Shown: positions 1 to 17,304 of the stretch, one piece after another
Position numbering within the stretch: position 1 is the first letter of the stretch
How the letters are laid out: each line of letters opens with the position of its first letter
Source of the DNA: Hyphomicrobiales bacterium
Lineage (GTDB): Bacteria > Pseudomonadota > Alphaproteobacteria > Rhizobiales > Beijerinckiaceae
Assembly (NCBI GenBank): GCA_003963405.1
Contig: RXIY01000018.1
Coordinates: 1-64,000, forward strand
Direction of reading: 5' to 3'
DNA length: 64,000 bases
Made by a program: the position numbers and the translations under genes
Notes under the pieces: model-generated
Databases searched by the model: none
What the model was told of the DNA's origin: nothing
Seen by the model: the letters and a program-made list of their open reading frames with translations, nothing else

Positions 1-281
1 CGTGGCCCAACCATTCCCCCTCACCAACATAATGACAATATCCCTTGGTATAGCAAAACACTGTCTATCGAATAGTAATAACAGCCCCAGTGGGTGGGCT
101 GCATACAACCCTTATGAGCTGTCGACAGGCCAGACACAGGACCGAGCCCCTACTTCTTAAGAGAATGATTTAACTCTATTTTCATCGAGTTTGACCCAAA
201 ATGGGCGAGCAGGCGTCAAATATGTGGCGCCATCTGCCCCAGCCCCGCCAACAGGACTGCGGCGATCTGTCAATTTTTCTC
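1..281. other. intergenic stretch, no gene seen
   Basis: The first 281 bases are noticeably more AT-rich than the rest of the window and hold no convincing reading frame with a ribosome binding site. No tRNA, repeat or insertion-sequence end was recognised. It lies downstream of the phosphoesterase gene that is read away from it on the minus strand, so it may hold that gene's terminator and the promoter region of a gene outside the window. Confidence 0.5.
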
Positions 282-1670
282 TTACCGTGGCGGTTTGAGG
301 GCGCTGCGCAGATCCGTGGCGGCGGCGTCCCGGGCGGTGAGCGGCTCCAGGCCAAAACGAAGTTCGATGGTGCGCAGAATCGAGGAGCCGTCATAGACGG
401 TCGTATCGATGAAGCCCTTGCGCGCGAAGGGTGAAATGACGAGCGCCGGTATCCGCGTCCCGGGCCCGAATCGGTCGATTTTTGGAGGGGAGACATGGTC
501 CCAGAAGCCCCCATTCTCGTCGGCGACGACGACGATGAGCATGTCGGACCAGTTCGGGCTGGCTTGGAGCTGGTCGACGATGGCGCCCAGATGTGCGTCG
601 CCGGCGTCGAAATCCGCGTAGGCCGGGTGCTCGTTATACCGGCCAACCGGCTTGTAGAAGGACACAGGCGGAAGCGTCCCCTTGCGCGCGTCTTCGATAA
701 AATCGGCCCCGTCTTTCAGATGCTCCGCGCGCGCGGACGTTCCCGGCCCATAATTCTTGAAATAGGCGAAGGGCTGGTGATGGCTTTGGAATTTATCCGC
801 CCCCTCATAGGGCCGGCTTCGTCCCGAGGCGACATCCGCCCAGCCGCCGGCGTACCAGGCCCAGCGAATATCCTTCTCGCTCAAACGATCGCCGATGGTT
901 GGGGCGGTCTGGGCGGGAAGTCGGTCGCCGTCCGAGGGAACGGGCCCGAGCGGCGCGAAAGGCAGAAATGTCCCGACTGCAAAGCCGTCGGGCGTGACCT
1001 TCCCGACATTTCGCCAACGGGGAACTCCGCGGAGAGCGCTCTCGGGCGACGAGTCCGCCCGGGCGAGGGGCCCCTTGCCATCTAGTTCCGACACCAGTTC
1101 TTTCGGGGCGTCCGGATAGACGGGCGCGCAGCCGCACACCAGAAAGACGTGATTGAGCATCGAGCCGCCGAAGGCGGGATGAAAGAAGTGATCCGCCAGG
1201 GTGAATTGCTGTGCCAGGCGCCACTGTTGAGAGCTGCGAGCGTCGCGATAGCCCATGACCAGCCCGCCCGCGTTCGAGGCCTCCACGAACTGGTCCATGC
1301 GGCCGCCGTTGATCTGCTCCTGCTCGACATAAAATTGATGAACCGGATCGATCTTTTCGGGCCCCGCAAGCGCGCCCTTTAGGAGGAAGGGCGCATTGGG
1401 CGGCCGGAATTCCTGTCCCGGAATCGGGAGATAGGGCAGCGCATGGCCGTCACGGTCGATCTGCGGATGGGCGCGCGCGGCCGCCTCCAAGCCCTCGGCG
1501 CCAGGAAAGAGGCCAAAGACGTGGTCGAAACTGCGGTTCTCGGTAACGATGACGACAATGTGCCCGATCTTGGCGAAGGGGTTGGGGCCTGCTCCCGCGC
1601 TGTCCTGCGCAGCCGCCGACGCGGCGCTCAGAAGGGCGGCCGCCAGAAAAATAAACCGTGTCGCTCTCAT
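282..1670 (-). CDS. secreted phosphoesterase (acid phosphatase / phospholipase C superfamily)
   Basis: A 462-residue protein of the PF04185 phosphoesterase family, which includes AcpA-type acid phosphatases and bacterial phospholipases C. An N-terminal signal peptide (hydrophobic core LAAALLSAASAAAQ, about residues 5-22) predicts export to the periplasm. The family metal/phosphate motif ENRSFDHVFG follows at about residues 45-54, and a C-terminal VADENGGFWDHV segment matches the second metal-binding region. The ATG at 1670 is preferred over the GTG one codon upstream. The substrate (phosphomonoester or phospholipid) cannot be read from sequence. It is followed on the same strand, upstream, by a cytochrome c peroxidase gene that has its own terminator, so it is probably a separate transcript. 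Confidence 0.85.
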   Translation of the reverse strand: MRATRFIFLAAALLSAASAAAQDSAGAGPNPFAKIGHIVVIVTENRSFDHVFGLFPGAEGLEAAARAHPQIDRDGHALPYLPIPGQEFRPPNAPFLLKGALAGPEKIDPVHQFYVEQEQINGGRMDQFVEASNAGGLVMGYRDARSSQQWRLAQQFTLADHFFHPAFGGSMLNHVFLVCGCAPVYPDAPKELVSELDGKGPLARADSSPESALRGVPRWRNVGKVTPDGFAVGTFLPFAPLGPVPSDGDRLPAQTAPTIGDRLSEKDIRWAWYAGGWADVASGRSRPYEGADKFQSHHQPFAYFKNYGPGTSARAEHLKDGADFIEDARKGTLPPVSFYKPVGRYNEHPAYADFDAGDAHLGAIVDQLQASPNWSDMLIVVVADENGGFWDHVSPPKIDRFGPGTRIPALVISPFARKGFIDTTVYDGSSILRTIELRFGLEPLTARDAAATDLRSALKPPR

Positions 1671-1730
1671 CACGTTCCACTCGAGACTGAGGCGCGACGG
1701 TGGCAGACGAACACTGCGACTTTACGACAG

Positions 1731-1760
1731 AAAAGGGGGCGAGCCCGGCGGGCCCGCCCC
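1731..1760 (-). terminator. intrinsic terminator downstream of cytochrome c peroxidase
   Basis: Read on the minus strand, a GC-rich hairpin with arms GGGGCG and CGCCCC (plus-strand 1755-1760 and 1736-1741) and further internal pairing is followed by CTTTT. It sits just after the stop codon of the peroxidase gene and before the phosphoesterase start, as expected for a rho-independent terminator separating the two. Confidence 0.6.
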
Positions 1761-1770
1761 TTCCTTCACT

Positions 1771-2808
1771 TTACTGCGGCCGCGGCGTGTCCTTCGTGCG
1801 GGCCGGCAGGACCGGATAGGTCACCTTCGGCTGGTCGCCCGTCAGGGCGCCGAGGAAGGCGACGATCGCCGCGTTCTCATCCGGAGACAGCGTCGCGCCG
1901 AGCTGGTCCTTCGCCATCACGTCCACGGCTTCCTCGAGCGTCCAGACGGCGCCGCTGTGGAAATAGGGCGCGCGCAGCGCGACATTGCGCAGCGGGGCGG
2001 AGCGGAAGACGAAGGCGTCGGCGTCGTTGTTCGTGACCTTGGCGCGGCCACGATCGGCGACCGGCATGATCGTCGCGTCGGGCTTCTGCGCCACGCCGAA
2101 CGGGAAGTAGCCGTTGCCGCCGACATTCACACCGCTGTGGCAACCGGAGCAGCCCTTGTCCATGAACAGGCGCAGGCCCTTCTTCTCCGTGTCGTTCATC
2201 GCGCTGGCGTCGCCGGCGAGGAACTTGTCGAGCTTCGAATTGGGCGTGGTCAAGGTGGCTTCGAAGGCCTCGATGGCGTTGGCCATATTGTCGAAGGTGA
2301 CCGGGTTGGCGTCGCTCGGGAAGGCGGCGCGGAACTCGGCGACATAGGCCGGCATGCTCTTGAGGGTCGCCTCGACCGCCGCCGGCGTGTTGTTCATTTC
2401 GACATCGGCCTGCACCGGACCCTTGGCCTGGGCCTTCAGATCGGTGGCGCGGCCGTCCCAGAACTGGGCGACGTTGAAGACGGCGTTGAGCACGGTCGGC
2501 GCGCGGCGCGGACCCTTGGCCCAACCATGGCCGATGGAGGTCGGCCCGGCGTCCACGCCGCCCGTGCCGAGGTTATGACAGCTGTTGCAGCTGATGATCT
2601 GGCTGCGGGACAGGCGCGGATCGAAGAAGAGCTTGTGGCCGAGCTCGACTTTCGTTGGCGTGATCGCATTGTTCTTGACGACCGAATTTATGCTCGCCGG
2701 ATCGATCGGCTTGAAGACGGCGCTGGCGTCGGCGCGCAGGTCGCCGGCCTGAGCCAGAACGGGAAACAGCAGCATTGCGCCGGTGGCGGCGATCCGAAGT
2801 CCGGACAT
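1771..2808 (-). CDS. di-haem cytochrome c peroxidase
   Basis: A 345-residue periplasmic protein with a signal peptide (residues 1 to about 21, ending LAQAG) and two c-type haem motifs, CNSCH near residue 73 and CSGCH near residue 218. That is the arrangement of the bacterial CcpA/MauG di-haem peroxidase family. Such enzymes reduce hydrogen peroxide using electrons from small cytochromes c; MauG-type members instead modify a protein partner. No methylamine dehydrogenase gene is nearby, so the peroxidase role is favoured. A purine-rich Shine-Dalgarno lies just before the ATG. The 240-bp divergent region towards the next gene holds a CTACA/TGTAG inverted repeat (about 2822-2840) that could be regulatory. 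Confidence 0.88.
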   Translation of the reverse strand: MSGLRIAATGAMLLFPVLAQAGDLRADASAVFKPIDPASINSVVKNNAITPTKVELGHKLFFDPRLSRSQIISCNSCHNLGTGGVDAGPTSIGHGWAKGPRRAPTVLNAVFNVAQFWDGRATDLKAQAKGPVQADVEMNNTPAAVEATLKSMPAYVAEFRAAFPSDANPVTFDNMANAIEAFEATLTTPNSKLDKFLAGDASAMNDTEKKGLRLFMDKGCSGCHSGVNVGGNGYFPFGVAQKPDATIMPVADRGRAKVTNNDADAFVFRSAPLRNVALRAPYFHSGAVWTLEEAVDVMAKDQLGATLSPDENAAIVAFLGALTGDQPKVTYPVLPARTKDTPRPQ

Positions 2809-3048
2809 TTCTTCTCTCCCCTACAGCTCTCTTCTTGTAGCTGGGCGCCCCGCCGCCGGGAGGCGCCGAAGCTTGGGACCTGCGCTACCACAACCCCTCA
2901 CCGGGCGGAAGCCCTCGCCCGAGGCCGCGAGGCTCCCGCGCGCGGCTGATCGCAACGGGCCGCCCGCGTGCAATTGCGCGCGGAAACGCCCGCTTAAAGA
3001 ATGCCCGACATAATTGCGACGCTACAGGTTCGAACAGGGGGGAAGTGA

Positions 3049-4333
3049 ATGTCGGCGCTCTCGAAACGGCTCCTGTCCTTCAAAAGGGACAACCGCGGCG
3101 TCGTGGGCGTCATTTTTGGACTTAGCCTGTTGCCGATGCTCGGCATGGTCGGCGCGGCGATCGACTACTCGGCCACCGCGCGCGTGAGAGCAGGCCTGCG
3201 GTCGGCCGCCGATGCGGCGGTCCTGGCGGCCGCCAGAGCCTATGTGGACGAGGCTCCCGACGACGCGACGGACACGGCGGCGGTCCTGGCGGCGAAAGCC
3301 AAGGCGAACGCAAAAGGCCAGTTACTGTTCAGCACCAACGCAACCCAGGTCATCGCGGGCGCCAGCGTCTCCATCGCCACGACCGTGAGCAACCTCACCG
3401 TGACGTCCACGGCGTATTATTCAGGCTCGTCGCCGACCTATTTCACCAAAATCCTTGGATTCCCGGACATCGACCTCTCTGGAAGCGTCAAGGCGTCCAT
3501 CACGCTTCCGAGATACAGAAACGTTTATGTCGCGATCGACATCTCCCAATCCATGGGCATCGGCGCCACCGAAACCGACATGGACAAACTCGCGTCCCTA
3601 ACGCCGGACAGTTGCATCTTCGGATGCCACACCGCCCGGGAAGGAGACGAGATGGCGTATTCCCAACTGGCGCGCCTCAAAAACGTAACGCTGAGGATCG
3701 ACGTGGTCAAAAAAGCCACGCAGAACATGATCGCCTCCGCCAATAGCATTGCGACCGACAAGAACATCAAGTTTGCGATTTATACGATGCAATTCGATGA
3801 TCTCACCCGGCTCGCGTCCCTGTCGTCCGATTACACGAACGCTTTGGCGACAGCGGCAGGCAAGATCGACCTCGGGCCTTCAGACCCGGGCGGGCCGGGC
3901 GATTCGGATCTTGCCGCCCCGCTGGCGTCTCTCACTAATATCGTGCCAGCGTCCGGAGACGGTAAGAGCGCCGCCAATCCGCAGAACTTCGTCTTCATCA
4001 TGACCGACGGGGTGAGAGACGTTTACAACGCAACCGTCCCTTGGGGTCACGCCGTCTCGGCTTTCGACGACTCCTGGTGCGCCGCCTTGAAGAACAAGGG
4101 CGTAACTGTCGGCGTCATCTACACGACCTATTTCCCGATCGATCAGAAAACCGCACACGATAAAGCCTATAATGATCTGGTGAAGCCCATCATCGGCCAG
4201 GTGCAGCCCAACCTCGAAAGCTGCGCCTCGACGGGGTATTTCTTCGAGGCGCAAAGACGGTCCGGAGATCGAGCAAAAGGTGGCGGAACTGTTCAAGAAA
4301 GCGGTGGGCGGCACGCTCGCGCTCTCGCGCTAG
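3049..4333 (+). pseudogene. TadG-like VWA pilus-assembly protein, frameshifted near its 3' end
   Basis: An open frame starts at 3049 with a typical TadE/TadG amino end: a short basic segment, then a transmembrane helix (about residues 16-40) and the AADAAVLAAA stretch that marks Flp-pilus TadG-like proteins. A von Willebrand factor A domain follows with the metal-site motif DISQSMG (near residue 164) and TDGVRD. The annotated frame runs on to a stop at 4408-4410 with an arginine-rich tail ([14 protein letters not shown]). In the next frame, starting in the GCGCAAAGACGG segment at 4249-4260, the sequence reads KDGPEIEQKVAELFKKAVGG and ends LALSR at a TAG (4331-4333), a natural-looking ending for this family. 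One extra base near 4249-4256 would explain this, either a real frameshift or a sequencing error. No other tad genes are present here. Confidence 0.75.
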
Positions 4334-4372
4334 GCTCGCGGGCGCGCCCGCTGGCCTCGATGCGCAGGAGGC

Positions 4373-5938
<1,566 letters not shown>

Positions 5939-6082
5939 TCATTCCGCGTAAAGGCAAATGGCGGCGCGTCCGGCGCCGGCGCGCGAGATCGTCAAAAATC
6001 GCAGCGCCCCCCACCCCTGCCCCTCCCCGCCGCTTCGCGGGGGGAGGGAAAATGCGGCGCCATCCGGAATAACAGGCCAGCT

Positions 6083-6137
6083 GACGCTCTCGGGCGCGAT
6101 CGACCTCCCTCCCCCTCGCGGAGAGGGATGAAGGGGG
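6083..6137. repeat. direct repeat, copy 1, flanking the restriction-modification operon
   Basis: A ~55-bp element containing the string CTCGGGCGCGAT followed by GACCTCCCTCCCC and a short self-complementary block (CTCCCTCCCC... GGAGAGGGA). A near-identical copy in the same orientation lies at 10972-11030, on the other side of the mod-res genes. Just upstream, at about 6008-6050, another C-rich/G-rich hairpin (CCTCCCCGCC ... GGGGGGAGGG) is present. This could be an interspersed repeat of the genome or a footprint of the exchange that placed the operon. Confidence 0.7.
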
Positions 6138-6227
6138 AAGCCGTGTCGACAAACACCTTGAGCTTGGCCATAGAATCGGTCCAATTTCGCCTCCGGCTGC
6201 TGCATGGCCGCAAGAGGGGAAACGCGC

Positions 6228-7751
6228 GTGCCGCTGCTGCACTGGCTGCACAAGGAGAAACATGTCGCCGCGGCGGAGGGCGCCCCCTACCGGCTGCTGA
6301 CGGCGGACGATTCACTCTCGGCCGGGGACCCCGAAACGCCCAACATGCTCGTGCAGGGCGACAATCTCGACGCGCTGAAGGCGCTCCTGCCCTATTACGC
6401 CGGCCAGGTGAAATGCGTCTTCATCGACCCGCCCTACAATACGAAGAGCGCCTTCGAACATTACGACGACAATCTGGAGCACAGCCAATGGCTGGCGATA
6501 ATGTATCCGCGCCTCGTGCTACTGCGCGAACTCATGGCCGAGGACGGCAGCATCTGGGTGACGATCGACGACAATGAGGCGCATTACCTCAAGGTGATGA
6601 TGGACGAGATTTTTGGGCGATCTAACTTTACCGCTAGCCTAGCTTGGCACAAACGCGTCTCACCGGCTAATGACGCAAAGTATTTTAGTGCAGATCACGA
6701 CCATGTGCTTGTTTATGCCGCTTCTAAACCGAATTGGACTCCAAATCGCCTCAGCCGAAGTGGGCAGCAATTAGAATACTACAAAAATCCAGACGATGAC
6801 CCAAGAGGAGTTTGGAATTCATCGGCCTATACATGCGCAAAATCTGCCGACGAAAGACCGAATTTGTTTTATTCTATAAGAAATCCGAATACTGGTGAGG
6901 AGATATGGCCGAACCGTAACCGTGTTTGGGCGTACGACAGACAGACACATGAACGCAACGTTGAAAATAACCCAATTTACTGGGGCAAAGACGGTCGTGG
7001 CACGATGCCTCGGATTAAAAAATTTCTAGCAGAGACGAAGCAAATAGTTCCTCGGAGTGTATGGCTTCACGATGAAGCGGGCCACAATCAAGAGTCAAAA
7101 ATCGAGATTGAAAAACTGTTCCCGCGTAGCCCTTTCGGTACTCCTAAACCCGAGAGGCTTCTGAAAAAGATTTTGGAAATCGCCACCAACCCCGGCGACC
7201 TCGTCCTCGACTCCTTCCTCGGCTCCGGCACGACCGCCGCCGTCGCCCACAAGATGGGCCGCCGCTATATCGGCATTGAAATGGGCGCGCATGCCGTCAC
7301 CCATTGCGCGCCGCGCCTGAAAAAAGTCATCGAGGGCGAACAGGGCGGCATCTCGCTGGCCGTCGGCTGGCAGGGCGGCGGCGGCTTTCGCTTCTACCGT
7401 CTCGGCCCGCCGATCTTCGACGCCGAAGGCCGCATCAATCCCGACATCCGCTTCCCCCAGCTCGCCGCCCATGTCTGGTTCTGCGAAACCCGCACGGCGC
7501 TTCACGGCAAGAAGCGCGGCCCCCTGCTCGGCCGCCACAAGGGCGTCGCCTATTATCTCCTCTACAATGGCGTGCTCGGCGACAAACGCCCCGACGGCGG
7601 CAATGTGCTGACCGGCCCGGTGCTGAAAGAGCTTCCCGCCCATGACGGGCCAAAAGTCATTTACGGCGAGGCCTGCCGCATCGGCCCGGCGCGGCTGAAG
7701 CAGCTCGGCGTCGCCTTCAAGCAGACCCCCTACGACGTGACCGCGCGATGA
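6228..7751 (+). CDS. mod: type III restriction-modification system, adenine-specific methyltransferase (Mod)
   Basis: A 507-residue beta-class N6-adenine DNA methyltransferase. It carries the catalytic motif IV DPPYNT (near residue 72), then a central target-recognition region, and near residue 334 the AdoMet-binding motif I as DSFLGSGTTAA; this order defines the beta class used by type III Mod proteins. The GTG at 6228 is favoured over ATG 6204: GAGGGG lies seven bases before it and VPLLHWL matches the usual Mod beginning. The stop overlaps the start of res (ATGA). Bases ~6605-7180, coding for roughly residues 126-317, are far more AT-rich than both flanks and use different codons, which marks an exchanged recognition domain. 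Mod sets the specificity of both methylation and cleavage. Confidence 0.9.
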   Translation: MPLLHWLHKEKHVAAAEGAPYRLLTADDSLSAGDPETPNMLVQGDNLDALKALLPYYAGQVKCVFIDPPYNTKSAFEHYDDNLEHSQWLAIMYPRLVLLRELMAEDGSIWVTIDDNEAHYLKVMMDEIFGRSNFTASLAWHKRVSPANDAKYFSADHDHVLVYAASKPNWTPNRLSRSGQQLEYYKNPDDDPRGVWNSSAYTCAKSADERPNLFYSIRNPNTGEEIWPNRNRVWAYDRQTHERNVENNPIYWGKDGRGTMPRIKKFLAETKQIVPRSVWLHDEAGHNQESKIEIEKLFPRSPFGTPKPERLLKKILEIATNPGDLVLDSFLGSGTTAAVAHKMGRRYIGIEMGAHAVTHCAPRLKKVIEGEQGGISLAVGWQGGGGFRFYRLGPPIFDAEGRINPDIRFPQLAAHVWFCETRTALHGKKRGPLLGRHKGVAYYLLYNGVLGDKRPDGGNVLTGPVLKELPAHDGPKVIYGEACRIGPARLKQLGVAFKQTPYDVTAR

Positions 7752-10366
7752 GCGCCTTCTCCCTCAAGAACTACCAGCGCCAGAGCCTTGACGTTCTGCG
7801 CGCCTATCTCGCGCGCGCCCGCATCGTCGGCGCCGGCCCGGCCTTCGACCAGACCGAGAAGCCGGGCGTGCGGACCCCACGCCCCTATCAGCCGCTCGCG
7901 GGGCTGGAGACGGTTCCTTATGTCTGCCTGCGCCTGCCGACCGGCGGCGGAAAAACGCTGCTCTCGGCCCATGCAGTGGAGATCGCCGCCGACGAATGGC
8001 TCGAACGCGCGTTTCCGCTCGTCCTGTGGCTGACGCCCACCAACACCATCCGCGCCCAGACGCTGGAGACGCTGAAAAAACCCGGCCACGCCAATTACGA
8101 GGCGCTGAACGACGCCTTCGGCGGGCGCTTCCGCGTCTTCGACATTGCGGATTTCGCGTTGCTCACCCCAGCCGATCTCAAAACTTACGCCTGCATTTTC
8201 GTCGGCACGACGCAGACGCTGCGGGTCAGCAACACGGAAGGCCGCAAGGTCTATGCGCACAACGAAAATCTCGAACCGCATTTTTCGGCCGTTCCCGACA
8301 CGACGCCGGGACTGGAGCGCATCGAGGAGGGCGAGGACAAGGGAAAAATAAAATTCTCCTTCCGCAATCTTCTGGCGCTGAACCGCCCGCTCGTCCTCGT
8401 GGACGAGGCGCACAACAACAAGTCGAAGCTCAGCGTCGAGGTGTTGCAGCGGATCAACGCCGGCTGTGTCGTCGAATTCACGGCGACGCCCGCAGCCGAC
8501 AGCAACATTCTCCACAATGTCTCGGCGACGGAGCTGAAGGCGGAGGAGATGATCAAACTCCCGATCCGCCTGACCGAACACAAGAGCTGGGAGGACGCCG
8601 TCGCCAACGCCATCCGCGAGCGCAAGCGGCTCCACGCGCTCGCGGAAAAGGACGCCGATCATATCCGCCCGATCGTTCTGTTTCAGGCCGAGGACAAGGG
8701 GCAGGACGTCACCAAGGACATTCTGGTCGCGCATCTTGTCGAGCAGGAGAACATCCCGCGCGAAAAAATCGCCGTCGTCACCGGCGATCAGCGGGAACTC
8801 GACAAGGTCGATCTCTTCGCGCGCAATTGTCCGGTGGATTATGTCGTGACGGTCGAGGCGCTGAAGGAGGGATGGGACTGCTCCTTCGCCTATGTCTTCT
8901 GCTCCGTGGCGAAGGTCGAATCGCGCACCTCGGTCGAGCAACTTCTCGGCCGCGTGCTGCGCATGCCCTATGCCAAACGGCGGGGCGAAACCGAGCTCAA
9001 TCGCGCCTATGCGCATGTCTCGCGCGCCTCCTGGCCCAACGCCGTGAACGAGCTGCATGACCGGCTCGTGGACATGGGCTTCGAGCAGGCGGAGGCCGAA
9101 AGCTTCATCGAGCCGCAGCCGCCGCTCGATCTTGCCGGCGGCGCGACTGGCGGCCTCTTCGGCGCGCCGCCGCCTTCGACAGTTCTGGAGGTGAACGAGA
9201 GCCCGGCCGTTTTCGACCTTACGCCCGAGGACCGCGAGGCGGTCAAGGTGGAGGAGACCGAGACCGGCGCGCGGCTCGTGCTGCTGCGCGCGATTTCCGA
9301 CGAAACCCGCGACCGGATCACGGCGGCGATCCGCTCGCCCGAGGCGCGCGCGACGGTCGACCGCGAGACGCGCCGGCACAACAGCCAGTGGCGGGCGCGC
9401 ATGACCCCGGCCGCGCGCGGCGAAATCTTTCGTCTCCCGCAACTCGCTTTCATCTTTCAGGGAGAGAAGGAGCTTGCGGAGCCGGAGAGTTTTCTCGACG
9501 CCAGCAGCTGGACGCTGACGGATTATTCTTCGGCGGTTTCGCCGCAGGAGTTCAATCTTACCGAAAGCGGCGCGCAATGGGAGGTCGATCTTCGAGACGG
9601 CCATCTGACGCACAAGACGGTCGCTTTCGCTGAACAGCAAAACCTCGACTTCGTTGATACGGGATGGACTCAGGGCCAGCTTGTGCAATGGCTGGAGAAG
9701 AAGCTTCGCCAGCCGGATGTCGTTCAGCCGGTGATGCTGGAGTTCGTGCGCCGCGCGGTGGCGGATCTGATGGAGCGGCGGGCGACTCCCTTGCCCGTGC
9801 TCGCACGCTGGAAATATATCCTTGCAAGAATACTGGGCCAGAAGATCGCGACGCATCGCGACGCGGCCGGGCGATCAAATTATCAGCGGCTGCTTTTTGG
9901 CACGCAGGCCGCCGTCGAGGCGACATTCGATTACGCCTTCGATTTCACGCCCGAAGGCTATGCGCCGCATTGGACCTATGAGGGCCGGCCTTACCTCTTC
10001 CAGAAGCATTTTTATCCGCTCGTCGGCGAATTGAAGAACAAGGGCGAGGAGTTCGAGTGCGCGAAGGCGCTCGACATGCATCCGAAGGTGCGGCACTGGG
10101 TGCGCAATCTGGACCGGCGCGGGTTCTGGCTGCCGCTGGCGCGCAACAGGTTCTATCCCGATTTCGTTGCGCAACTCGACGACGGCCGGCTGCTCGTCGT
10201 CGAACACAAGGGCGAGGTCTATGCGACGAATGACGACAGCAAGGAAAAAAGCAGCGTCGGCGACCTTTGGCAGGCAAAGAGCGGCGGCAAGGGACTGTTT
10301 CTCATGACGGTGATCGAAGCGGGCAGGCCCGGCCTCTATGAGCAGATCGACGCTGTGATCGCGTAA
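7748..10366 (+). CDS. res: type III restriction enzyme, helicase/nuclease subunit (Res)
   Basis: An 872-residue superfamily 2 ATPase-endonuclease. The Walker A motif PTGGGKT is near residue 65 and the DEAH-type Walker B is LVDEAHNN near residue 220. Helicase motif VI appears as SVEQLLGRVLRMPY near residue 396. A C-terminal PD-(D/E)xK nuclease is visible as YPDFVAQLDDGRLLVVEHKG near residue 803. Res needs Mod for DNA recognition and cleaves after translocation between sites in opposite orientation. The start overlaps mod by four bases, so the two are translationally coupled. The length is at the short end for Res proteins but all motifs are present, so it looks intact. Base composition is that of the genome, unlike the centre of mod. 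Confidence 0.92.
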   Translation: MSAFSLKNYQRQSLDVLRAYLARARIVGAGPAFDQTEKPGVRTPRPYQPLAGLETVPYVCLRLPTGGGKTLLSAHAVEIAADEWLERAFPLVLWLTPTNTIRAQTLETLKKPGHANYEALNDAFGGRFRVFDIADFALLTPADLKTYACIFVGTTQTLRVSNTEGRKVYAHNENLEPHFSAVPDTTPGLERIEEGEDKGKIKFSFRNLLALNRPLVLVDEAHNNKSKLSVEVLQRINAGCVVEFTATPAADSNILHNVSATELKAEEMIKLPIRLTEHKSWEDAVANAIRERKRLHALAEKDADHIRPIVLFQAEDKGQDVTKDILVAHLVEQENIPREKIAVVTGDQRELDKVDLFARNCPVDYVVTVEALKEGWDCSFAYVFCSVAKVESRTSVEQLLGRVLRMPYAKRRGETELNRAYAHVSRASWPNAVNELHDRLVDMGFEQAEAESFIEPQPPLDLAGGATGGLFGAPPPSTVLEVNESPAVFDLTPEDREAVKVEETETGARLVLLRAISDETRDRITAAIRSPEARATVDRETRRHNSQWRARMTPAARGEIFRLPQLAFIFQGEKELAEPESFLDASSWTLTDYSSAVSPQEFNLTESGAQWEVDLRDGHLTHKTVAFAEQQNLDFVDTGWTQGQLVQWLEKKLRQPDVVQPVMLEFVRRAVADLMERRATPLPVLARWKYILARILGQKIATHRDAAGRSNYQRLLFGTQAAVEATFDYAFDFTPEGYAPHWTYEGRPYLFQKHFYPLVGELKNKGEEFECAKALDMHPKVRHWVRNLDRRGFWLPLARNRFYPDFVAQLDDGRLLVVEHKGEVYATNDDSKEKSSVGDLWQAKSGGKGLFLMTVIEAGRPGLYEQIDAVIA

Positions 10367-10479
10367 GCGCGGCATGACGCGCGCAGCCTCGCCGCGTCAA
10401 TTCCTCCCCTTTACGGGGACGGTTTCCGGCAAAAAAAAATCCAAAAATCTTTTCCCCACCCCCCAAAGCCTCTCCTACC

Positions 10480-10680
10480 TTGGTCCCGCCTCGCCAACTT
10501 GCAGGGGCGTCGTCGGGTCGGCGGCGCCGGCGGGGTCGGTCAAGTGCGGGACGGCGACCCTCGTTCCGTGCGGGCCCCGGCGTCGCCAGCTGGGCTTCTC
10601 CATCGTGCGGAGGCTCAAAGCTGGGCGTAATGAGCCGGTCGCGAAACGGGGCGCCAGTACCGAAAGGGACAGCGCCCGCG
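10480..10680 (+). ncRNA. candidate structured RNA of unknown family
   Basis: Downstream of res, a 200-bp non-coding stretch holds several good stems in series. GTCCCGC (10483-10489) plus ACTTG (10497-10501) pair with CAAGT and GCGGGAC (10541-10552), leaving a seven-base bulge. GGCGAC (10553-10558) pairs with GTCGCC (10582-10587). GGGCGC (10649-10654) pairs with GCGCCC (10672-10677), and inside it GTACC and GGGAC close a GAAA tetraloop. I could not match it to RNase P RNA, tmRNA, SRP RNA, 6S RNA or a group II intron domain V. A poly-A run at 10433-10440 precedes it. The strand is assumed; the GNRA loop favours plus. In this GC-rich DNA such pairing can arise by chance, so confidence is low. 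Confidence 0.3.
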
Positions 10681-10971
10681 ATTGGCGGCGGCGCATGGGA
10701 GGCCCTTGCGACGCGCGCGCTTCGTCATCGGACGGGGCGCGAAAGAAGCGCCGCCGTCAGGCGGACGCGCCGGATAGGGGGAAACGCCACAGGATGGCGC
10801 AAATCCCGGCCGGAAAGGTGCGTCGCGAAGAATAGCCGCAGCCGGGACGCTCTGGTTCCGACGCGCATTTCTTTCACGCTACCGGCCGAACGGGGCCGGG
10901 GCGTCCCGGCGACCTGAACAGCCCGCGTCGAAACCGGCGGCGGGACGATGGGCGTTGGCTCGAGCCAGATC

Positions 10972-11030
10972 GACGCGCTCGGGCGCGATTGACCTCCCTC
11001 CCCTCGCGGGGAGGGATAAAGGGTGGGGGG
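10972..11030. repeat. direct repeat, copy 2, flanking the restriction-modification operon
   Basis: This matches the 6083-6137 element with only a few differences: CTCGGGCGCGATTGACC here, CTCGGGCGCGATCGACC there, then the CCCTCCCC / GGGGAGGGA self-complementary block and a G-rich tail. Both copies have the same orientation. It lies 26 bp from the 3' end of the ABC exporter gene and could also act as a transcription stop between convergent genes. Confidence 0.7.
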
Positions 11031-11056
11031 CCGCGCCGCGATTACGGCGCGCCCGC

Positions 11057-12880
11057 TCAAGACGCCGCCGCCCCTGCCCGCTCCGTGTCGAACTGGAGCC
11101 TCGCGAGCCGCGCATAGAGGCCGCCGGCGGCGGAGAGGCTCGCATGCGTGCCCTCCTCCACGATGCCGCCCTCGTCGAGCACGAGGATGCGGTCGGCCTC
11201 GAGCACGGTGGCGAGGCGATGGGCGATGACGATGCTGGTGCGTCCCGCCATCACGTCGTGAAGCGCCGCCTGCACGGCGGCCTCGTTCTCGGCGTCGAGC
11301 GCGGAGGTCGCTTCGTCGAGCAGCAGAACCGGCGCGTCGGCGAGGATGGCGCGCGCGATGGCGAGGCGCTGGCGCTGGCCGCCCGACAGCGTGACCCCGC
11401 GCTCGCCGAGCAGCGTGTCGTAGCCCTGCGGCAAGGTCTCGATGAACTCATGCGCCTGCGCCCGCTTCGCCGCCGCGACGATCGCCTCCCGCGTCGCGCT
11501 CTCCCGCCCATAGGCGATGTTCTCCGCGACGCTCAGGCCGAAGATCACCGGGTCCTGCGGCGCCAGCGCGATGGCCGCGCGCAGATCGAGCGGATCGAGC
11601 GCGCGCACATCGACGCCGTCGAGGGAAATCGCGCCGCTATCCACGTCGTAGAAGCGCAGCAGCAGCGAAAAGAGCGTCGACTTGCCGGCGCCGGACGGGC
11701 CGACCAGCGCGATTCGCTCGCCGGGCTCGACGACGAGCGACAGACCGTCGAGCGCCGCGCGATCGGGCGCGGTCGGATAGGCGAAGACGACATGGTCGAA
11801 GGCGATGCGTCCCCGCCAGCGCGCGGGCGGCTTCGTGGGATGCGGCGGCGCGACGATCCGCGGCTTCACGGCAAGGATTTCCGCGATGCGCGACGCGGCC
11901 CCGGCGGCGGCGACGACCTCGCTCCAGACCGACGAAAGCTCGCCGAGCGAACTCGCCCCGAGCACGGCGTAGAGCACGAACTGGGAGAGGACGCCGGCGC
12001 TCATCCGCCCCGTGAGCACGTCCTGCGCGCCGAGCCAGAGCACGGCGACGATGCTGGTGAAGACGACGAGAATCACGCCCGCCGTCACGAAGGCGCGCAT
12101 CAGCGTCGCCGCCTGCGCGGCGTCGTAAGCCGTCTCGACCGCGCGGCGGAAGCGCGCGACGGTCGACGCCTGCGCGCCATTGGCCTGCATGGCGCGCACG
12201 GCGGAGAGATTCTCGCCCGCATAGGCGGCCGCCTGGGCGAGCATGTCCTGCGCATGTTTCGAGCGGCCGCGCACGCTGCGCCCCGAGGCGATCAGCGGCA
12301 GCACGATGACCGGAATCGCCGCAAGCGCGAGCCCCGCGAGCTTCGGGCTCGTCGCGAACATCATCACCACCGCGCCGACGAACATGAAGATGTTGCGCAG
12401 CGCGACGGAAGCCGAGGAGCCAAAGGCGGATTTGAGAAGCGTCGTGTCCGCAGTGAGACGCGACAGCAATTCGCCGGTCTTGGCCGTGTCGAAAAAGGCG
12501 GCGTCCAGCGCGGTGAGATGCCTGAAGAGATCGGCGCGCAGATCGGCGACCACGCGCTCGCCGAGCGTCATGACAAAGTAATAGCGGGTGGCGGACGCCA
12601 GAGCGAGAGTCGCGGCGACCGCGATCATCGCGCCGAAATAGGCGTTCACCGCCCCCGCGCTGTCAGCCGAAAATCCATGGTCGATCATGCCGCGCACGGC
12701 GGCGGGCAGCGTCAGCGTCGCTCCCGCCGCGACAATCAGCGCCGTGAAGGCCAGCGCGATCGTGCGCTTGTAGCGCAGGGCGTAGGGCAAAAGCGGGCGC
12801 AGCGGCGCAAGCGTTGCGCCGACGCCCCGCTTCGAATCACGGGCGGAGGGCGGAGTGGCGATGTCGTTGATCCTTGTCAT
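11057..12880 (-). CDS. MsbA-like ABC exporter (fused permease and ATPase)
   Basis: A 607-residue half-transporter. A six-helix ABC type I exporter membrane domain occupies about residues 30-330, followed by a nucleotide-binding domain. The latter has Walker A GPSGAGKST (about residue 395), a Q-loop in LAPQDPVIF, the signature LSGGQRQRLAIARA (about residue 498), Walker B VLLLDEATSALD and the H-loop IAHRL. Homodimers of this type flip lipids, lipid A or drugs out of the inner membrane. The cargo cannot be told from sequence, though MsbA/lipid A exporter-like is the closest general description. It stands alone: downstream is the non-coding gap and upstream a 350-bp intergenic region. Confidence 0.88.
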   Translation of the reverse strand: MTRINDIATPPSARDSKRGVGATLAPLRPLLPYALRYKRTIALAFTALIVAAGATLTLPAAVRGMIDHGFSADSAGAVNAYFGAMIAVAATLALASATRYYFVMTLGERVVADLRADLFRHLTALDAAFFDTAKTGELLSRLTADTTLLKSAFGSSASVALRNIFMFVGAVVMMFATSPKLAGLALAAIPVIVLPLIASGRSVRGRSKHAQDMLAQAAAYAGENLSAVRAMQANGAQASTVARFRRAVETAYDAAQAATLMRAFVTAGVILVVFTSIVAVLWLGAQDVLTGRMSAGVLSQFVLYAVLGASSLGELSSVWSEVVAAAGAASRIAEILAVKPRIVAPPHPTKPPARWRGRIAFDHVVFAYPTAPDRAALDGLSLVVEPGERIALVGPSGAGKSTLFSLLLRFYDVDSGAISLDGVDVRALDPLDLRAAIALAPQDPVIFGLSVAENIAYGRESATREAIVAAAKRAQAHEFIETLPQGYDTLLGERGVTLSGGQRQRLAIARAILADAPVLLLDEATSALDAENEAAVQAALHDVMAGRTSIVIAHRLATVLEADRILVLDEGGIVEEGTHASLSAAGGLYARLARLQFDTERAGAAAS

Positions 12881-13232
12881 GCCCCCGACCCTATAGCGCC
12901 CGACGTGAAGGAAGACGACTCCGAAGCCTTTCCCCTTGCCAGCCCCTTTTCAGGCGTCCGCGCCGGGGAATGTTGTGCGGTGCGGAATCAAAAAATATTT
13001 TTGCCCCGACAGACGAAACCCCGGCTCCTCGCGACAATAACACCATGTTTTTCATAGAGTTATAGCGTGCGACATGTTGTCGCGGAAAAATTCGGCCATG
13101 GCTGGACAGGGGCAAAACATATGATACCTTTCCCCTGCGTCGAAATGACGCGTCCGCCAAAAGGTGGGGGGCAAAGCGCCAGAAAAACAAAAAGCAAGGC
13201 GCGGCTCTGGGAACGAAAGAGGAGTGAAGATC
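12881..13232. other. intergenic region upstream of the 55-residue membrane peptide
   Basis: About 350 bp without a gene between the start of the ABC exporter (minus strand) and the small membrane peptide (plus strand). The right half is relatively AT-rich, as expected for a promoter region. It contains a compact inverted repeat, GCGACA (13069-13074) and TGTCGC (13078-13083), with a three-base spacer. Confidence 0.5.
13069..13083. promoter_or_regulatory. inverted repeat, possible operator
   Basis: GCGACA and TGTCGC separated by TGT form a 15-bp palindrome about 150 bp upstream of the small-peptide ORF and 190 bp upstream of the ABC exporter start. No known regulator box was matched; a role in controlling one of the divergent genes is conjecture. 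Confidence 0.3.
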
Positions 13233-13400
13233 ATGGCTGATAAAGAACTCGAAGTCACGACCAACACCTATATCTTCGCCGGCGTCGGCGCCGTTCTCCT
13301 TGGCGGCCTCGCGGCTGCTGCTCTCGGCGGCCTGCCGAACACGATCGCGGCTGGCGTCGTCGGCGCGCTCGCGGGCGGCTGCCTCGGCCTGTTCTTCTAA
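13233..13400 (+). CDS. small glycine/alanine-rich membrane peptide, 55 residues
   Basis: The ATG at 13233 follows a good Shine-Dalgarno (GAGGAG, eight bases upstream). The encoded 55-residue peptide begins MADKELEVTTNTYIF and continues as an almost uninterrupted hydrophobic Gly/Ala/Leu stretch with two helix-length segments, separated by GGLPNT, ending LGLFF. It should insert in the inner membrane as a helical hairpin. Repeated small-xxx-small spacing (GAVLLGGLAAAALGG, GVVGALAGG) suggests helix packing or oligomerisation. No family was recognised. It has its own upstream region and a perfect downstream hairpin, so it is probably a monocistronic gene. A longer frame starting at 13164 lacks a ribosome binding site. 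Confidence 0.72.
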   Translation: MADKELEVTTNTYIFAGVGAVLLGGLAAAALGGLPNTIAAGVVGALAGGCLGLFF

Positions 13401-13454
13401 TCGACGTATTTGGCGCAGCGCTGGTCTGGCCGCCAGCGTAACGCCAGTCGACAC

Positions 13455-13486
13455 CAGCCAGCAATCGCGACCGCGGTTGCTGGCTG
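13455..13486 (+). terminator. hairpin downstream of the small membrane peptide gene
   Basis: Perfect 10-bp arms CAGCCAGCAA and TTGCTGGCTG with a 12-base loop lie 55 bp after the small-peptide stop and before the convergent acyl-CoA synthetase stop. There is no strong T run on either side, so it may be a weak bidirectional terminator or an RNA 3' end stabiliser. Confidence 0.5.
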
Positions 13487-13567
13487 TGCTGTTTGAAGAA
13501 CACTTTCCAGATGAGCTGTTTTTCATTGAAGCGCGCCTTCCGGTCAGGAAAGCGCGTGTTTCGATCA

Positions 13568-15226
13568 TTACAGACTGGCCGTCGAAAGGCCGCCGGGCCA
13601 CATCTCGCGCGCGCGATTCCGCAGAACATATTTCTGTATCTTGCCGGTGGAGGTCTTCGGCAGAGGCCCGAAGACGACATGGCGCGGGCATTTGAAATGG
13701 GCCAGATGCGTGCGCGACCAGGCGATGATCTCCTCCGCCGTGGCGCTCTCCCCTTCCCTCAGTTCGACGAAGGCGCAAGGAGTCTCGCCCCATTTGTCGT
13801 CCGGCGCGGCGACCACCGCGGCGGAACTCACCTTCGGATGCTTGAAGAGAATATCTTCCACTTCGATCGAAGAGATGTTCTCGCCGCCTGAAATGATGAC
13901 GTCCTTTGACCGGTCCTTGAGCTGGATGTAGCCGTCGGGATGCATCACGCCGAGATCGCCGGAGTGGAACCAGCCGCCGTCGAAGGCTTTCTCCGAAGCG
14001 GCTTTGTTCTTCAGGTAACCCTTCATGACGATGTTGCCGCGAAACATCACCTCGCCCATGGTGGCGCCGTCGCGGGGCACGGGCTGCATCGTTTCCGGAT
14101 CGATGACGTCGAGGTCTTCGAGCACATTGTAACGAACGCCCTGCCGGGCCTTCATCTGCGCCTGCGCCACGTCGTCGAGATCGTCCCAATGCGACTGCCA
14201 TTCGTTCACGGCCGCGGGACCGTAGGTTTCGGTCAGGCCGTAAAGATGGGTGACCTCGAAACCCGCCGCCTTCATCGCAGCGAGAACCGCCTGCGGCGGC
14301 GGCGCGGCGGCCGTGAAGAACCGCACGGTCTGCTTCAACGGCTTCTTCTCGGCCTCGGTGGCGCCGAGCAGCGTGGACATGACGATGGGCGCGCCGCACA
14401 GATGCGTGACGCCATGCTCGGACATGAGCTCGTACATTTGGCCCGGGCGCACCTGCCGCAGGCAGACATGCGTGCCCGCGGCGACCGACAGGGACCAGGT
14501 GAAACACCAGCCGTTGCAATGGAACATCGGCAAGGTCCAGAGATAGACCGGGTGGCGGCCCATGTCTCCGGTGAGAATATTGCCGAGCGCAAGCAGATAG
14601 GCCCCGCGATGGTGATAGACGACGCCTTTGGGATCGCCCGTCGTGCCCGAGGTGTAATTCAGGGAGATCGCGTCCCACTCGTCGCGCGGCGGGCGCCAAG
14701 CATAGGCGGGGTCGCCACCCAGGATGAAATCCTCGTAGTCGATCGAGCCGAGCCTTTCGCCTGGCCCCGCATATTCGGGGTCGTCGTAGTCGATGATGAG
14801 CGGTTTCGTCTTCGTGAGCGCCAGCGCCTCGCGCATCAATCCCGAGAATTCCCGGTCGACGATCAGCGCCCTGGCTTCCGCGTGATCCAGGGTGAAGGCG
14901 AGGATCGGCGCATCGAGGCGGGTATTGAGCGTGTTCAGCACGGCCCCGACCATGGGGACGCCGTAATGGCATTCGAGCATCGCGGGCGTGTTGGCGAGCA
15001 TCACGCAGACCGTGTCGCCCCGCCCGATTCCGCCCTTCTCCAGCGCGCTGGCGAGGCGCCGGCTGCGCGCATAGAAGTCACGGTAGGTGCGCCGCAGGCC
15101 GCCGTGGACGATTGCGATCCGGTCGGGAAAGACCGCCGCCGCCCGCGCCAGAAAAGTCAGCGGCGTCAAAGGCTGGAAATTGGCCGCATTGCGGTCGAGG
15201 TCGCGGTCGTAGGCGGATGCTGGCAT
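13568..15226 (-). CDS. acyl-CoA synthetase (AMP-forming)
   Basis: A 552-residue adenylate-forming enzyme that activates a carboxylic acid to an acyl-AMP and then to acyl-CoA. It has the P-loop motif YTSGTTGDPKG (about residue 187), the YGLTE motif near residue 312, GWFHSGD near 420, the hinge region KDRSKDVIISGGENIS and the C-terminal catalytic lysine in KTSTGKIQK. Its length and motifs resemble medium/long-chain fatty-acid CoA ligases of the AlkK type, but substrate chain length cannot be fixed. The ATG at 15226 (with GGAG upstream) is preferred, because the longer frame would run back into the end of trcR. It follows trcR by about 100 bp on the same strand. Confidence 0.9.
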   Translation of the reverse strand: MPASAYDRDLDRNAANFQPLTPLTFLARAAAVFPDRIAIVHGGLRRTYRDFYARSRRLASALEKGGIGRGDTVCVMLANTPAMLECHYGVPMVGAVLNTLNTRLDAPILAFTLDHAEARALIVDREFSGLMREALALTKTKPLIIDYDDPEYAGPGERLGSIDYEDFILGGDPAYAWRPPRDEWDAISLNYTSGTTGDPKGVVYHHRGAYLLALGNILTGDMGRHPVYLWTLPMFHCNGWCFTWSLSVAAGTHVCLRQVRPGQMYELMSEHGVTHLCGAPIVMSTLLGATEAEKKPLKQTVRFFTAAAPPPQAVLAAMKAAGFEVTHLYGLTETYGPAAVNEWQSHWDDLDDVAQAQMKARQGVRYNVLEDLDVIDPETMQPVPRDGATMGEVMFRGNIVMKGYLKNKAASEKAFDGGWFHSGDLGVMHPDGYIQLKDRSKDVIISGGENISSIEVEDILFKHPKVSSAAVVAAPDDKWGETPCAFVELREGESATAEEIIAWSRTHLAHFKCPRHVVFGPLPKTSTGKIQKYVLRNRAREMWPGGLSTASL

Positions 15227-15323
15227 CAAGGGAGACTCCAAAAGCGCAGGCGCGCGGGCCGTCGCTTGCAGGATATATGCAAATTTCCGCTTGTCTGCCG
15301 CCGCCTTCCGCCGTCCTTCCCCG

Positions 15324-16040
15324 CTATTCGCCGAAATCGACGTCCTTGAGTCGGCCGAAAACGCGCTCGGCGTCGAAATTGTCCTCGTCCTCCGCCGGAA
15401 CGGCCGGCTTTGTCGGCTTGCCGAAGACATCCTCGGTCGTGGTCGGCTCGCGCAGGCTGGTGGTGACTGTGGCGGGCACCAGAGTCTGGCCGTGATCCTC
15501 GACGACCGCCGGACGGTCCTTGGCGGCGCGGTTGACCTCGAAGTCGAGATCGATCTGCGAGCAGAGGCCGAGCGTCACAGGGTCCATCGGCGTCAACGAG
15601 GCTGAGTTCCAGTGCGTCCGCTCGCGGATCGCCTTGAGGGTCGCCTTGGTGGTGCCCACGAGCCGCATAATTTGCGCGTCCTTGAGCTCGGGATGGTTGC
15701 GCACGAGCCACAGAATGGCGTTCGGCCGGTCCTGGCGCCGCGAGAGCGGCGTATAGCGCGGACCGCGCGTCTTCTTGACCTCCGGCACAACGACCTTGGA
15801 AACCGAAAGCCTCAGCTGATGCCTGGCGTCGCGTTCGCCACGGGCGATTTCCTCGCGGGTCAACTGACCCGAAGTGATCGGATCGTGACCGCGAATGCCA
15901 GCGGCCACCTCGCCATCGGCGATGCCCTTCACCTCGAGAGGGTGCAATTTGCAGAATTCAGCGATTTGGTCGAAGGTCAGGGAGGTGTTTTCGACGAGCC
16001 AGACTGCCGTCGCCTTCGGCATCAAGGGGGCGTTGCTCAT
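15324..16040 (-). CDS. trcR: cell-cycle transcriptional regulator TrcR (DUF1013)
   Basis: A 238-residue member of DUF1013, a family nearly confined to alphaproteobacteria and named TrcR for its part in cell-cycle transcription. The first ~60 residues (LVENTSLTFDQIAEFC...) form a helix-turn-helix-like region, and a second such region follows at about residues 105-140 (AILWLVRNHPELKDAQIMRL). The carboxyl end is acidic and probably disordered. In the family it associates with RNA polymerase; that role is taken from the literature, not visible here. AAGGAG lies ten bases before the ATG. Confidence 0.88.
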   Translation of the reverse strand: MSNAPLMPKATAVWLVENTSLTFDQIAEFCKLHPLEVKGIADGEVAAGIRGHDPITSGQLTREEIARGERDARHQLRLSVSKVVVPEVKKTRGPRYTPLSRRQDRPNAILWLVRNHPELKDAQIMRLVGTTKATLKAIRERTHWNSASLTPMDPVTLGLCSQIDLDFEVNRAAKDRPAVVEDHGQTLVPATVTTSLREPTTTEDVFGKPTKPAVPAEDEDNFDAERVFGRLKDVDFGE

Positions 16041-16227
16041 CTTGCTGAATCTCCTTGGGTGCGGGCATGGCGGGAGCGTCCGGCGCCGCGCCTTGCCGGC
16101 GCCGGCGACCCCATTAGGCTCGACCGTCCATGATGGGAATGTCGTGTATATAGCCGCTCAGCGCCCAATTCGCAATGATTTGATGCGCCGCGCGTATGAA
16201 CGCCCGCCCCTGCCTTCCCCGCTCCCG

Positions 16228-17304
16228 TTATGAGTCGCCGCCCCGCGCATGGGCGGGACGCAGCCTCTGCGAATGCTCGGGCAAAAGCTCCCTCAGGGCA
16301 ACGCCAAGCGCCGGACCGTATTTGTGAAAAACCAGTCCAAAGGCGATCAGCGCCACGCCGACGCCCGAGAGCGCGAAGGGAAAAAGGATCGAATCCTTGA
16401 AGACTTCGCTCGAGAGATAGCCCAGATACATGGTGACGCCGACGGCGCCGAAGACGGCATAGGCGCGCCGCATCAGGAAAATCGAAAGAAAGACGAGCCC
16501 AACGTTCACGAGGCAATAGAGCGCCTTCCCCAGTTCGCTCCCGCTGTGCTGCATCGTCAGCCCGCCCCAGAAGGCCATGAGCCCGCCGAGGTGGAGCCAG
16601 AAGGCGAAATCGCCGTTCTTCCATTTCCTGAGGTCGATCAGCCAGGCGAGCGCGATGACGACGAGCCCGAAATACATGCTGACGGTCGCGCGCTGATCAA
16701 AGGTGAAGTCATCGACGCCCATGAGCCAGGGCGTCAGGTCCATCGACAGGAACCACAGGCAGAACGCGATGATCATGGTGAGGAAGGGGAAAGGAAAGAC
16801 CATGAGCGCCAGCGAAGCGGCGGCGATCGTCCCGAGCTCCATCGGCAGCCAGCTCGACTTGATCCAGATGTAGAAGTCGCGATAGCCGCCGGGCGCGTCG
16901 ATTGGGCTGTGACCCAAGAGCGATTGCAGGCTGTAAATGGCCAGCGGCGCCATGCCGACCGCGCAGGTGACGAGCAGGCCGCCGGGCGTGCGCAGGCCGC
17001 GACGCCATAGCACGGCGCCGGCGGCCAGAAACACGGCGGCGTAGATGGCGGCCGTGGCCAGTAGCGCGCCATCGCCCCAGAGTCCGAAAGCCATGGTCGA
17101 GAACATGCCCATCGCGCCGAGCACGATGAGCGCGCCCGCGTACCAGAGCATGTGAACGAAATCATAGCGCGGCGCCGCCCCGGCCGGCGGCGCCGTCGCA
17201 AGGCGGGCGGCGAGAAAGCGCGTCAGGCGCTCGAAGGTTTCGGCGTCGATGACGCCAGCGTCGCGGGCAGCCGCGAGGTCGTCGATGGGTGAGCGTGCCG
17301 ACAT
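16228..17304 (-). CDS. multipass membrane protein, DUF2157-like
   Basis: A 358-residue integral membrane protein with a short soluble amino end (DDLAAARDAGVIDAETFERL, a helical pattern seen in DUF2157 proteins) and roughly eight to ten hydrophobic segments. The ATG at 17304 is chosen because GGAGG lies eight bases upstream; starts further out at 17319, 17328 and 17370 lack a good site, and the outermost would add a cysteine-rich leader MCVCTRNCC that looks spurious. No catalytic motif or transport signature is visible. It is read divergently from purM. Function unknown. Confidence 0.7.
   Translation of the reverse strand: MSARSPIDDLAAARDAGVIDAETFERLTRFLAARLATAPPAGAAPRYDFVHMLWYAGALIVLGAMGMFSTMAFGLWGDGALLATAAIYAAVFLAAGAVLWRRGLRTPGGLLVTCAVGMAPLAIYSLQSLLGHSPIDAPGGYRDFYIWIKSSWLPMELGTIAAASLALMVFPFPFLTMIIAFCLWFLSMDLTPWLMGVDDFTFDQRATVSMYFGLVVIALAWLIDLRKWKNGDFAFWLHLGGLMAFWGGLTMQHSGSELGKALYCLVNVGLVFLSIFLMRRAYAVFGAVGVTMYLGYLSSEVFKDSILFPFALSGVGVALIAFGLVFHKYGPALGVALRELLPEHSQRLRPAHARGGDS

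Follow-up and report, generated by a model that had tools for sequence, protein, structure and literature searches.

Organization of the mod-res operon

The window (the whole stretch of 64,000 nucleotides analysed here) carries two adjoining genes whose products correspond to the methylation and restriction subunits of a type III system. Their main features are as follows.

6204..7751, plus strand: mod, type III methyltransferase (ORF of 515 aa, likely start GTG 6228)
6426..6443, plus strand: motif IV, DPPYNT (residue 75 of mod)
7215..7235, plus strand: motif I, FLGSGTT, AdoMet-binding (residue 338 of mod)
7748..10366, plus strand: res, type III restriction subunit (872 aa, helicase and C-terminal PD-(D/E)xK-like motif)

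The two ORFs overlapped by 4 bp and each matched a dedicated profile, PDLC03644 for Mod (E 2.3e-190) and PADLOC REase_III PDLC03650 for Res (E 2.2e-186). The true start of mod is probably GTG 6228, because 90% or more of 53 aligned Mods carry a Met at residue 9. The methyltransferase displayed the beta-class order of motif IV, recognition domain and motif I. The adjoining Res combined helicase motifs with a PD-(D/E)xK nuclease pattern (TGGGKT at 7940, DEAH at 8402, TATP at 8480, GRVLRMP at 8948 and PDF..EHK at 10157, all found by pattern). The predicted structure of Mod had a mean pLDDT of 90.7 and its top three fold matches were type III Mods or a Mod-named methyltransferase, so that both fold and motifs were those of a complete type III Mod. 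With 515 aa it is shorter than the Mod of the EcoP15I Mod-Res complex (644 aa, PDB 4zcf), and the window Res gave no match to PDB sequences at E 0.001.

Genomic setting

The operon was located between two genes of the opposite strand, both recognized through Pfam.

4373-5860, minus strand: IMP dehydrogenase gene
11057-12880, minus strand: ABC-transporter gene

In G003, the closest other species according to both flanking proteins, these genes were about 690 bp apart, and the spacer contained a 141-aa frame and no mod-res. Among 39 genomes of the genus, Mod relatives (E 1e-30) occurred in four, including the window's own and that of G018, which belongs to the same species as the window strain. 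A full-length res relative (E 1e-60) was restricted to the window genome and G018, while G031 had a 157-residue match. Wherever the IMP dehydrogenase and ABC-transporter genes adjoined, the spacer varied from about 0.1 to 5.2 kb within the genus. Its cargo comprised a cyclase-domain protein (PF00211) in G025 and a Tad/VWA-domain protein in G016. This spacer (window positions 5861-11056) has the appearance of a hotspot for insertion. Two direct copies of a 32-nt repeat, at 6083-6114 and 10972-11003 and 94% identical, bracket the mod-res insertion, and there were longer cross-matches of about 60 bp (89-90%). The repeat may mark the entry of the operon or be a dispersed one.

Composition of mod

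The initial annotation had described an AT-rich central block with different codon usage in mod. A block of this kind was clearly recovered from third codon positions.

6609..7178, plus strand: exchanged AT-rich block, composed of core strands and the target-recognition domain (residues 136-325, limits set by GC3 change points)

GC3 was 0.84 for residues 1-135, 0.42 for residues 136-325 and 0.86 for residues 326-515, and total GC in 200-bp windows went from 0.675 to 0.44-0.48 and back to 0.675. The best single GC3 segment of the gene was 6609-7178 (0.42 inside versus 0.85 outside), with a log-likelihood gain of 50.5, whereas 100 permutations of codon order gave no more than 8.9. The edges first proposed, 6605 and 7180, were within 4 and 2 bases of these change points, and the block did fall between motifs IV and I as annotated. 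Both edges were also said to be sharp. This held in GC3, whereas segmentation on all positions (gain 30.7) put the right edge at 7181 but moved the left one to 6435, so that only synonymous composition shows a sharp left edge. The flanks of mod and the res gene showed no such drop, again in line with the annotation, since GC3 in res was 0.81 overall and 0.70-0.88 per 100 codons. At the structural level, the block extended from the end of predicted helix 123-137 to the inside of helix 317-327. It is somewhat wider than the bare recognition domain, because predicted strands 142-149 and 165-172 fall inside it.

Replacement of the block within one species

Comparison with the sister genome G018 provided direct evidence of exchange and revealed three regions of raised divergence.

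6500..6619, plus strand: probable left edge of the exchange tract, within conserved coding sequence, with 9 differences from G018 over 120 bp
7179..7400, plus strand: probable right edge of this tract, with 8 differences from G018 over 222 bp
8701..9000, plus strand: second patch of raised divergence, located in res, with 20 differences from G018 over 300 bp

Conserved ends with a divergent centre among related strains had been named as support for exchange, and this was the pattern encountered. G018 matched window positions 1-6619 (6.6 kb) at 98.8% identity and 7179-17177 (10.0 kb) at 99.1%, and blastn returned no match to G018 for positions 6620-7178. G018 holds another recognition domain there, of which two readable pieces were 52% and 47% identical in protein. 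In one of the two strains the recognition domain was replaced as a block, the ends of the gene being kept as in allelic exchange, and in the window both the reading frame and the motifs are intact. The most coherent description, which we hold with high confidence, is that of an accessory type III mod-res operon of an alphaproteobacterium with en bloc replacement of the recognition domain in one of these two strains.

Substitutions relative to G018 were scarcer outside the edges (60 in the first 6203 bases and one in the 351 bp of 7401-7751), and a 120-bp stretch with 9 or more arose in 0.5% of 1000 permutations. The block was likely brought in by homologous recombination between the conserved coding sequences that flank it. 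The exchange tract would have extended into the flanks by one to two hundred bases, as the substitution clusters suggest. The block was probably already AT-rich on arrival, possibly originating from a GC-rich donor; such a donor allele would have had GC-rich flanks around its AT-rich centre. Identification of the recipient from edge substitutions was attempted with a single same-species genome and 11 outgroups (14 given, 3 without data). The rarer base occurred in the window strain at 6 sites of the left edge and in G018 at 3; at the right edge the outgroups sided more with the window strain at 4 sites and with G018 at 3, with one tie. The signal was weak at the left edge and absent at the right.

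In type III enzymes, Mod alone reads DNA and guides Res; such systems hemimethylate a short asymmetric site, and two sites are required for restriction. A swap of this kind would leave motifs IV and I and the C-terminal part of the protein in place and change the DNA reader. Because Mod guides Res, the restricted sequence would change along with the methylated one, in a single step. We infer that block replacement changed DNA specificity. The window and G018 centres might recognize the same or a related sequence, since they are about half identical in protein. Both strains are near-identical and differ in the reading part by one half-kilobase exchange, which makes them a natural pair for specificity tests, with the caveat that the sister mod looks broken. 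Indeed, mod of G018 was frameshifted and split into two ORFs, while its res was open. At positions 8468-9002 of the G018 locus (L088), about 4 nt separated the matched recognition-domain stretches, against 45 nt in the closest relatives, which corresponds to the loss of about 41 bp inside the gene and a frameshift. If the assembly is right, the type III system is probably inactive in G018.

The patch inside res suggests further recombination within the operon. Between 8740 and 9010, res differed from its G018 counterpart by 9 synonymous and 6 non-synonymous codon differences. The patch overlaps helicase motif VI.

An assembly chimera or contamination, in the window genome or in G018, could be suspected from the 122 contigs and 2.87% estimated contamination of the window assembly as well as from the frameshift in the G018 gene. 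It is very unlikely, however: the window junctions are in frame, the protein was predicted with high confidence, the block edges match those found across the family (see below), and the sole other Mod matches of the genome were 65- and 52-residue stretches of other genes. A programmed local switch, in which inversion or cassette shuffling alters the recognition domain, is reported for type I hsdS loci (PMC7394358). Here it appears extremely improbable, because no second copy of the domain was found in the genome at E <0.1 and no repeats of at least 16 nt were found at the block edges. Moreover, the four tandem repeats of region 5800-11100 displayed 1.9-2.1 copies of 7-14 nt units. This region holds no switching tract, i.e. 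mod has none of the frame-switching simple repeats that define phasevarions.

Recognition-domain exchange in the Mod family

A combined set was assembled from the window, the homologue scan and members of the host's family, in which 8 of 107 rows were dropped for incomplete flanks or centre, or as duplicates, leaving 99 mods (L095, L099 and L110 were kept with internal stops read as X). Identities of the N- and C-flanks were strongly correlated over the 4851 pairs (rho 0.82), in contrast to N-flank and centre (0.20) or C-flank and centre (0.11). Keeping the incomplete rows gave 0.74, 0.19 and 0.11, respectively (5563 pairs). Both flanks were at least 85% identical in 56 non-independent pairs involving 34 genes; the centre was less than 50% identical in 41 of these pairs and at least 80% in 9. 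The reverse situation was also observed. At shared residues, third-position differences were lower in the centre than in the flanks for L044/L046 (0.02 versus 0.18) and L036/L037 (0.06 versus 0.19). For L038/L108, two otherwise diverged Mods have a centre in common (identity 0.76, versus 0.53 for the N- and 0.39 for the C-flank), i.e. a centre residing in a gene with different flanks. These alignments point to pervasive recognition-domain exchange in the Mod family.

Divergence of the centre in place, through diversifying selection and with no recombination, would agree with conservation being lowest, in most homologues, in the central third of the protein. Yet, it hardly accounts for flanks diverged by about 1% around a centre without blastn match in G018, nor for near-identical centres across more diverged flanks, centres common to different Mod subfamilies and largely uncorrelated flank and centre identities. 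This explanation therefore seems highly unlikely. The exchange part of the initial annotation, a recombination that swapped the target-recognition domain, is thus supported both by G018 and by the family, while AT-richness did not stand as its recent trace (see below).

Searches for a donor of the window centre identified none among aligned Mods, viral contigs, phages and plasmids. The best centre identity among 106 other aligned Mods was 60% (L008), no relative was found among viral contigs, and phages yielded 8 records with 42% identity at best. With the whole Mod as query, plasmids yielded 995 records, of which the best-ranked full-length place was 58% identical and 7 had a place at 60-80% identity. 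The window's own genome has only one such Mod, and the donor would therefore be another cell.

The window locus is an allelic recognition-domain exchange as known from Neisseria, Haemophilus and Helicobacter. Gawthorne 2012 (PMC3311624) describes modA of Neisseria and Haemophilus as having a central domain replaced en bloc between conserved 5' and 3' ends, with identity that can reach past the domain borders. It reports GC contents of 40/28/40% along modA12, the low-GC domain being taken as a sign of horizontal transfer. The modA genes resemble the window mod in en bloc replacement and low GC of the domain; in contrast, they are phase variable and belong to pathogens, whereas the window mod showed no switching repeat tract and its host is an alphaproteobacterium. 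In Helicobacter pylori, according to Furuta 2014 (PMC3983042), recombination at conserved motifs transfers type III recognition domains among genes that may or may not be orthologous. The window genome differs in that only one such Mod was found in it.

One further pair, L099/L100, displayed protein identities of 0.89 in the flanks and 0.85 in the centre, with third-position differences of 0.54 in the centre versus 0.26 in the flanks, as if the flanks were homogenized or under stronger constraint than the centre.

Low GC of recognition domains across hosts

The AT-rich centre had been read as the mark of a recent swap, a view to be given up if close homologues shared it. They do share it in composition, and not in the sequence of the centre. 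A scan using peptides from the window Mod yielded 256 matches, of which the best 80 were taken and 79 retained after removal of L087 (no N flank), with internal stops in L016 and L027 read as X; L088 and L090 are outside these counts and L089 gave no gene. Centre GC3 was below both flanks in 75 of the 79 and above both in one (kinship being ignored in this count), with a median dip of 0.21. Likewise, the centre was AT-richer than both flanks in 24 of 26 mods from the host's family, one of the 27 loci having no gene of 400 aa. The 26 include L102 (G162, same family), which has the mod sequence of Methylosinus sp. Ce-a6 (L051) and was, as a duplicate, dropped from the 105-gene fit and correlation sets; the host is accordingly probably related to methanotrophs. 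In a second Mod clade (PDLC03634), the centre was below both flanks in 21 of 23 measured loci and above both in one; 7 of 30 loci were without the motif pair, and a stricter pattern dropped 13 of the 30 and gave 16 of 17.

The limits of the AT-rich segment were also recurrent. In the 57 genes with flank GC3 above 0.65 (window included), mean GC3 was 0.71-0.87 up to residue 119, 0.43-0.55 at residues 143-311 and at least 0.75 from residue 335 on. Among 105 other genes, the gain of the best GC3 segment exceeded 8.9 in 82, a block spanned 120 or more of the 190 centre codons in 88, and in 57 an AT-richer best block began and ended no more than 30 codons from the window block's edges.

Controls were flat. 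The mean dip was -0.013 (maximum 0.133) in 164 further long frames of these loci, taken as open frames and not as established genes, and -0.012 (maximum 0.049) in 65 res genes. CcrM is an orphan beta-class methyltransferase, and CcrM-like genes with the same motif order occurred in 58 of 60 genomes of the host's family (the window genome's copy scored 602.8 bits, against a CcrM model cut-off of 830). The best 30 of these 58 matched genomes had a median dip of 0.003 and a maximum of 0.083. A dip of 0.15 was thus reached in none of the 164 frames, 65 res and 30 CcrM-like genes, and unlike type III Mods the 30 measured CcrM-like genes had no central dip of at least 0.1. This last comparison separates being AT-rich from having arrived recently.

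Two possible causes were considered and set aside. Amino-acid composition does not account for the dip, since centre GC3 was below the composition-corrected expectation in 77 of the 79 homologues. Residue conservation does not either, the dip being found at conserved and variable residues alike (centre 0.38-0.41 versus flanks 0.57-0.64 in every conservation class).

We consider it likely that AT-richness of the centre is maintained as a property of recognition domains prone to exchange, and that it is silent on when the window block arrived. This interpretation competes with AT-richness as a sign of recency alone and is compatible with exchange. It is favoured by the three homologue sets, by the controls, by the dip at all residue classes and by the L016/L018 pair, whose centres are 83% identical in protein and remain AT-rich (GC3 0.35/0.33, versus 0.67/0.54 in the flanks) despite a third-position difference of 0.54. 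Some observations are less favourable. The window dip of 0.43 is near-extreme, being equalled or surpassed by one of 79 homologues, so that some recency may add to it. In addition, 11 of the 30 CcrM-like centres were also slightly below both flanks, gene relatedness is ignored in the counts, and type I HsdS domains were below neighbouring frames in 21 of 30 cases (P 0.10, these neighbour frames being unreliable). Still, low GC gives no dating signal, because type III recognition domains were AT-rich in nearly all hosts examined.

A broader proposal, for and against which the chances seem evenly balanced, is that type III recognition domains form a distinct AT-rich compartment maintained throughout bacterial phyla, with GC3 lower than in the rest of the gene, because they are exchanged as blocks and escape the forces raising GC in the catalytic flanks. 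If true, a low-GC recognition domain would mark the exchange-proneness of the domain class and not the recency of import, and published readings of low GC as horizontal transfer would need revision. Such a family-wide compartment is a more interesting result than a single exchange. In the modA12 paper low GC is a sign of transfer for a single domain, whereas it was seen family-wide here. No paper stating that recognition domains of type III Mods are generally low in GC appeared in the portions of the literature returned by our search.

The question raised is what keeps exchanged domains AT-rich. Such centres may be drawn from a circulating pool of AT-rich domains; alternatively, the forces that raise GC (biased gene conversion or selection) may act less strongly on a segment that seldom recombines homologously along its length. 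A fit of centre on flank GC3 over 105 genes, window included, gave a logit slope of 0.54 (0.46-0.62) and met the diagonal at GC3 0.20, which also favours a maintained property. A fixed AT-rich donor pool with partial amelioration was rejected under linear fits, as these need a pool GC3 of about 0.06 or 0.11, which seems implausible; the logit fit gives a pool GC3 of 0.20 and suits a pool and weakened GC pressure alike. In the AT-rich host Bartonella (L081), GC3 was 0.26/0.25/0.29 along mod and the dip had nearly gone.
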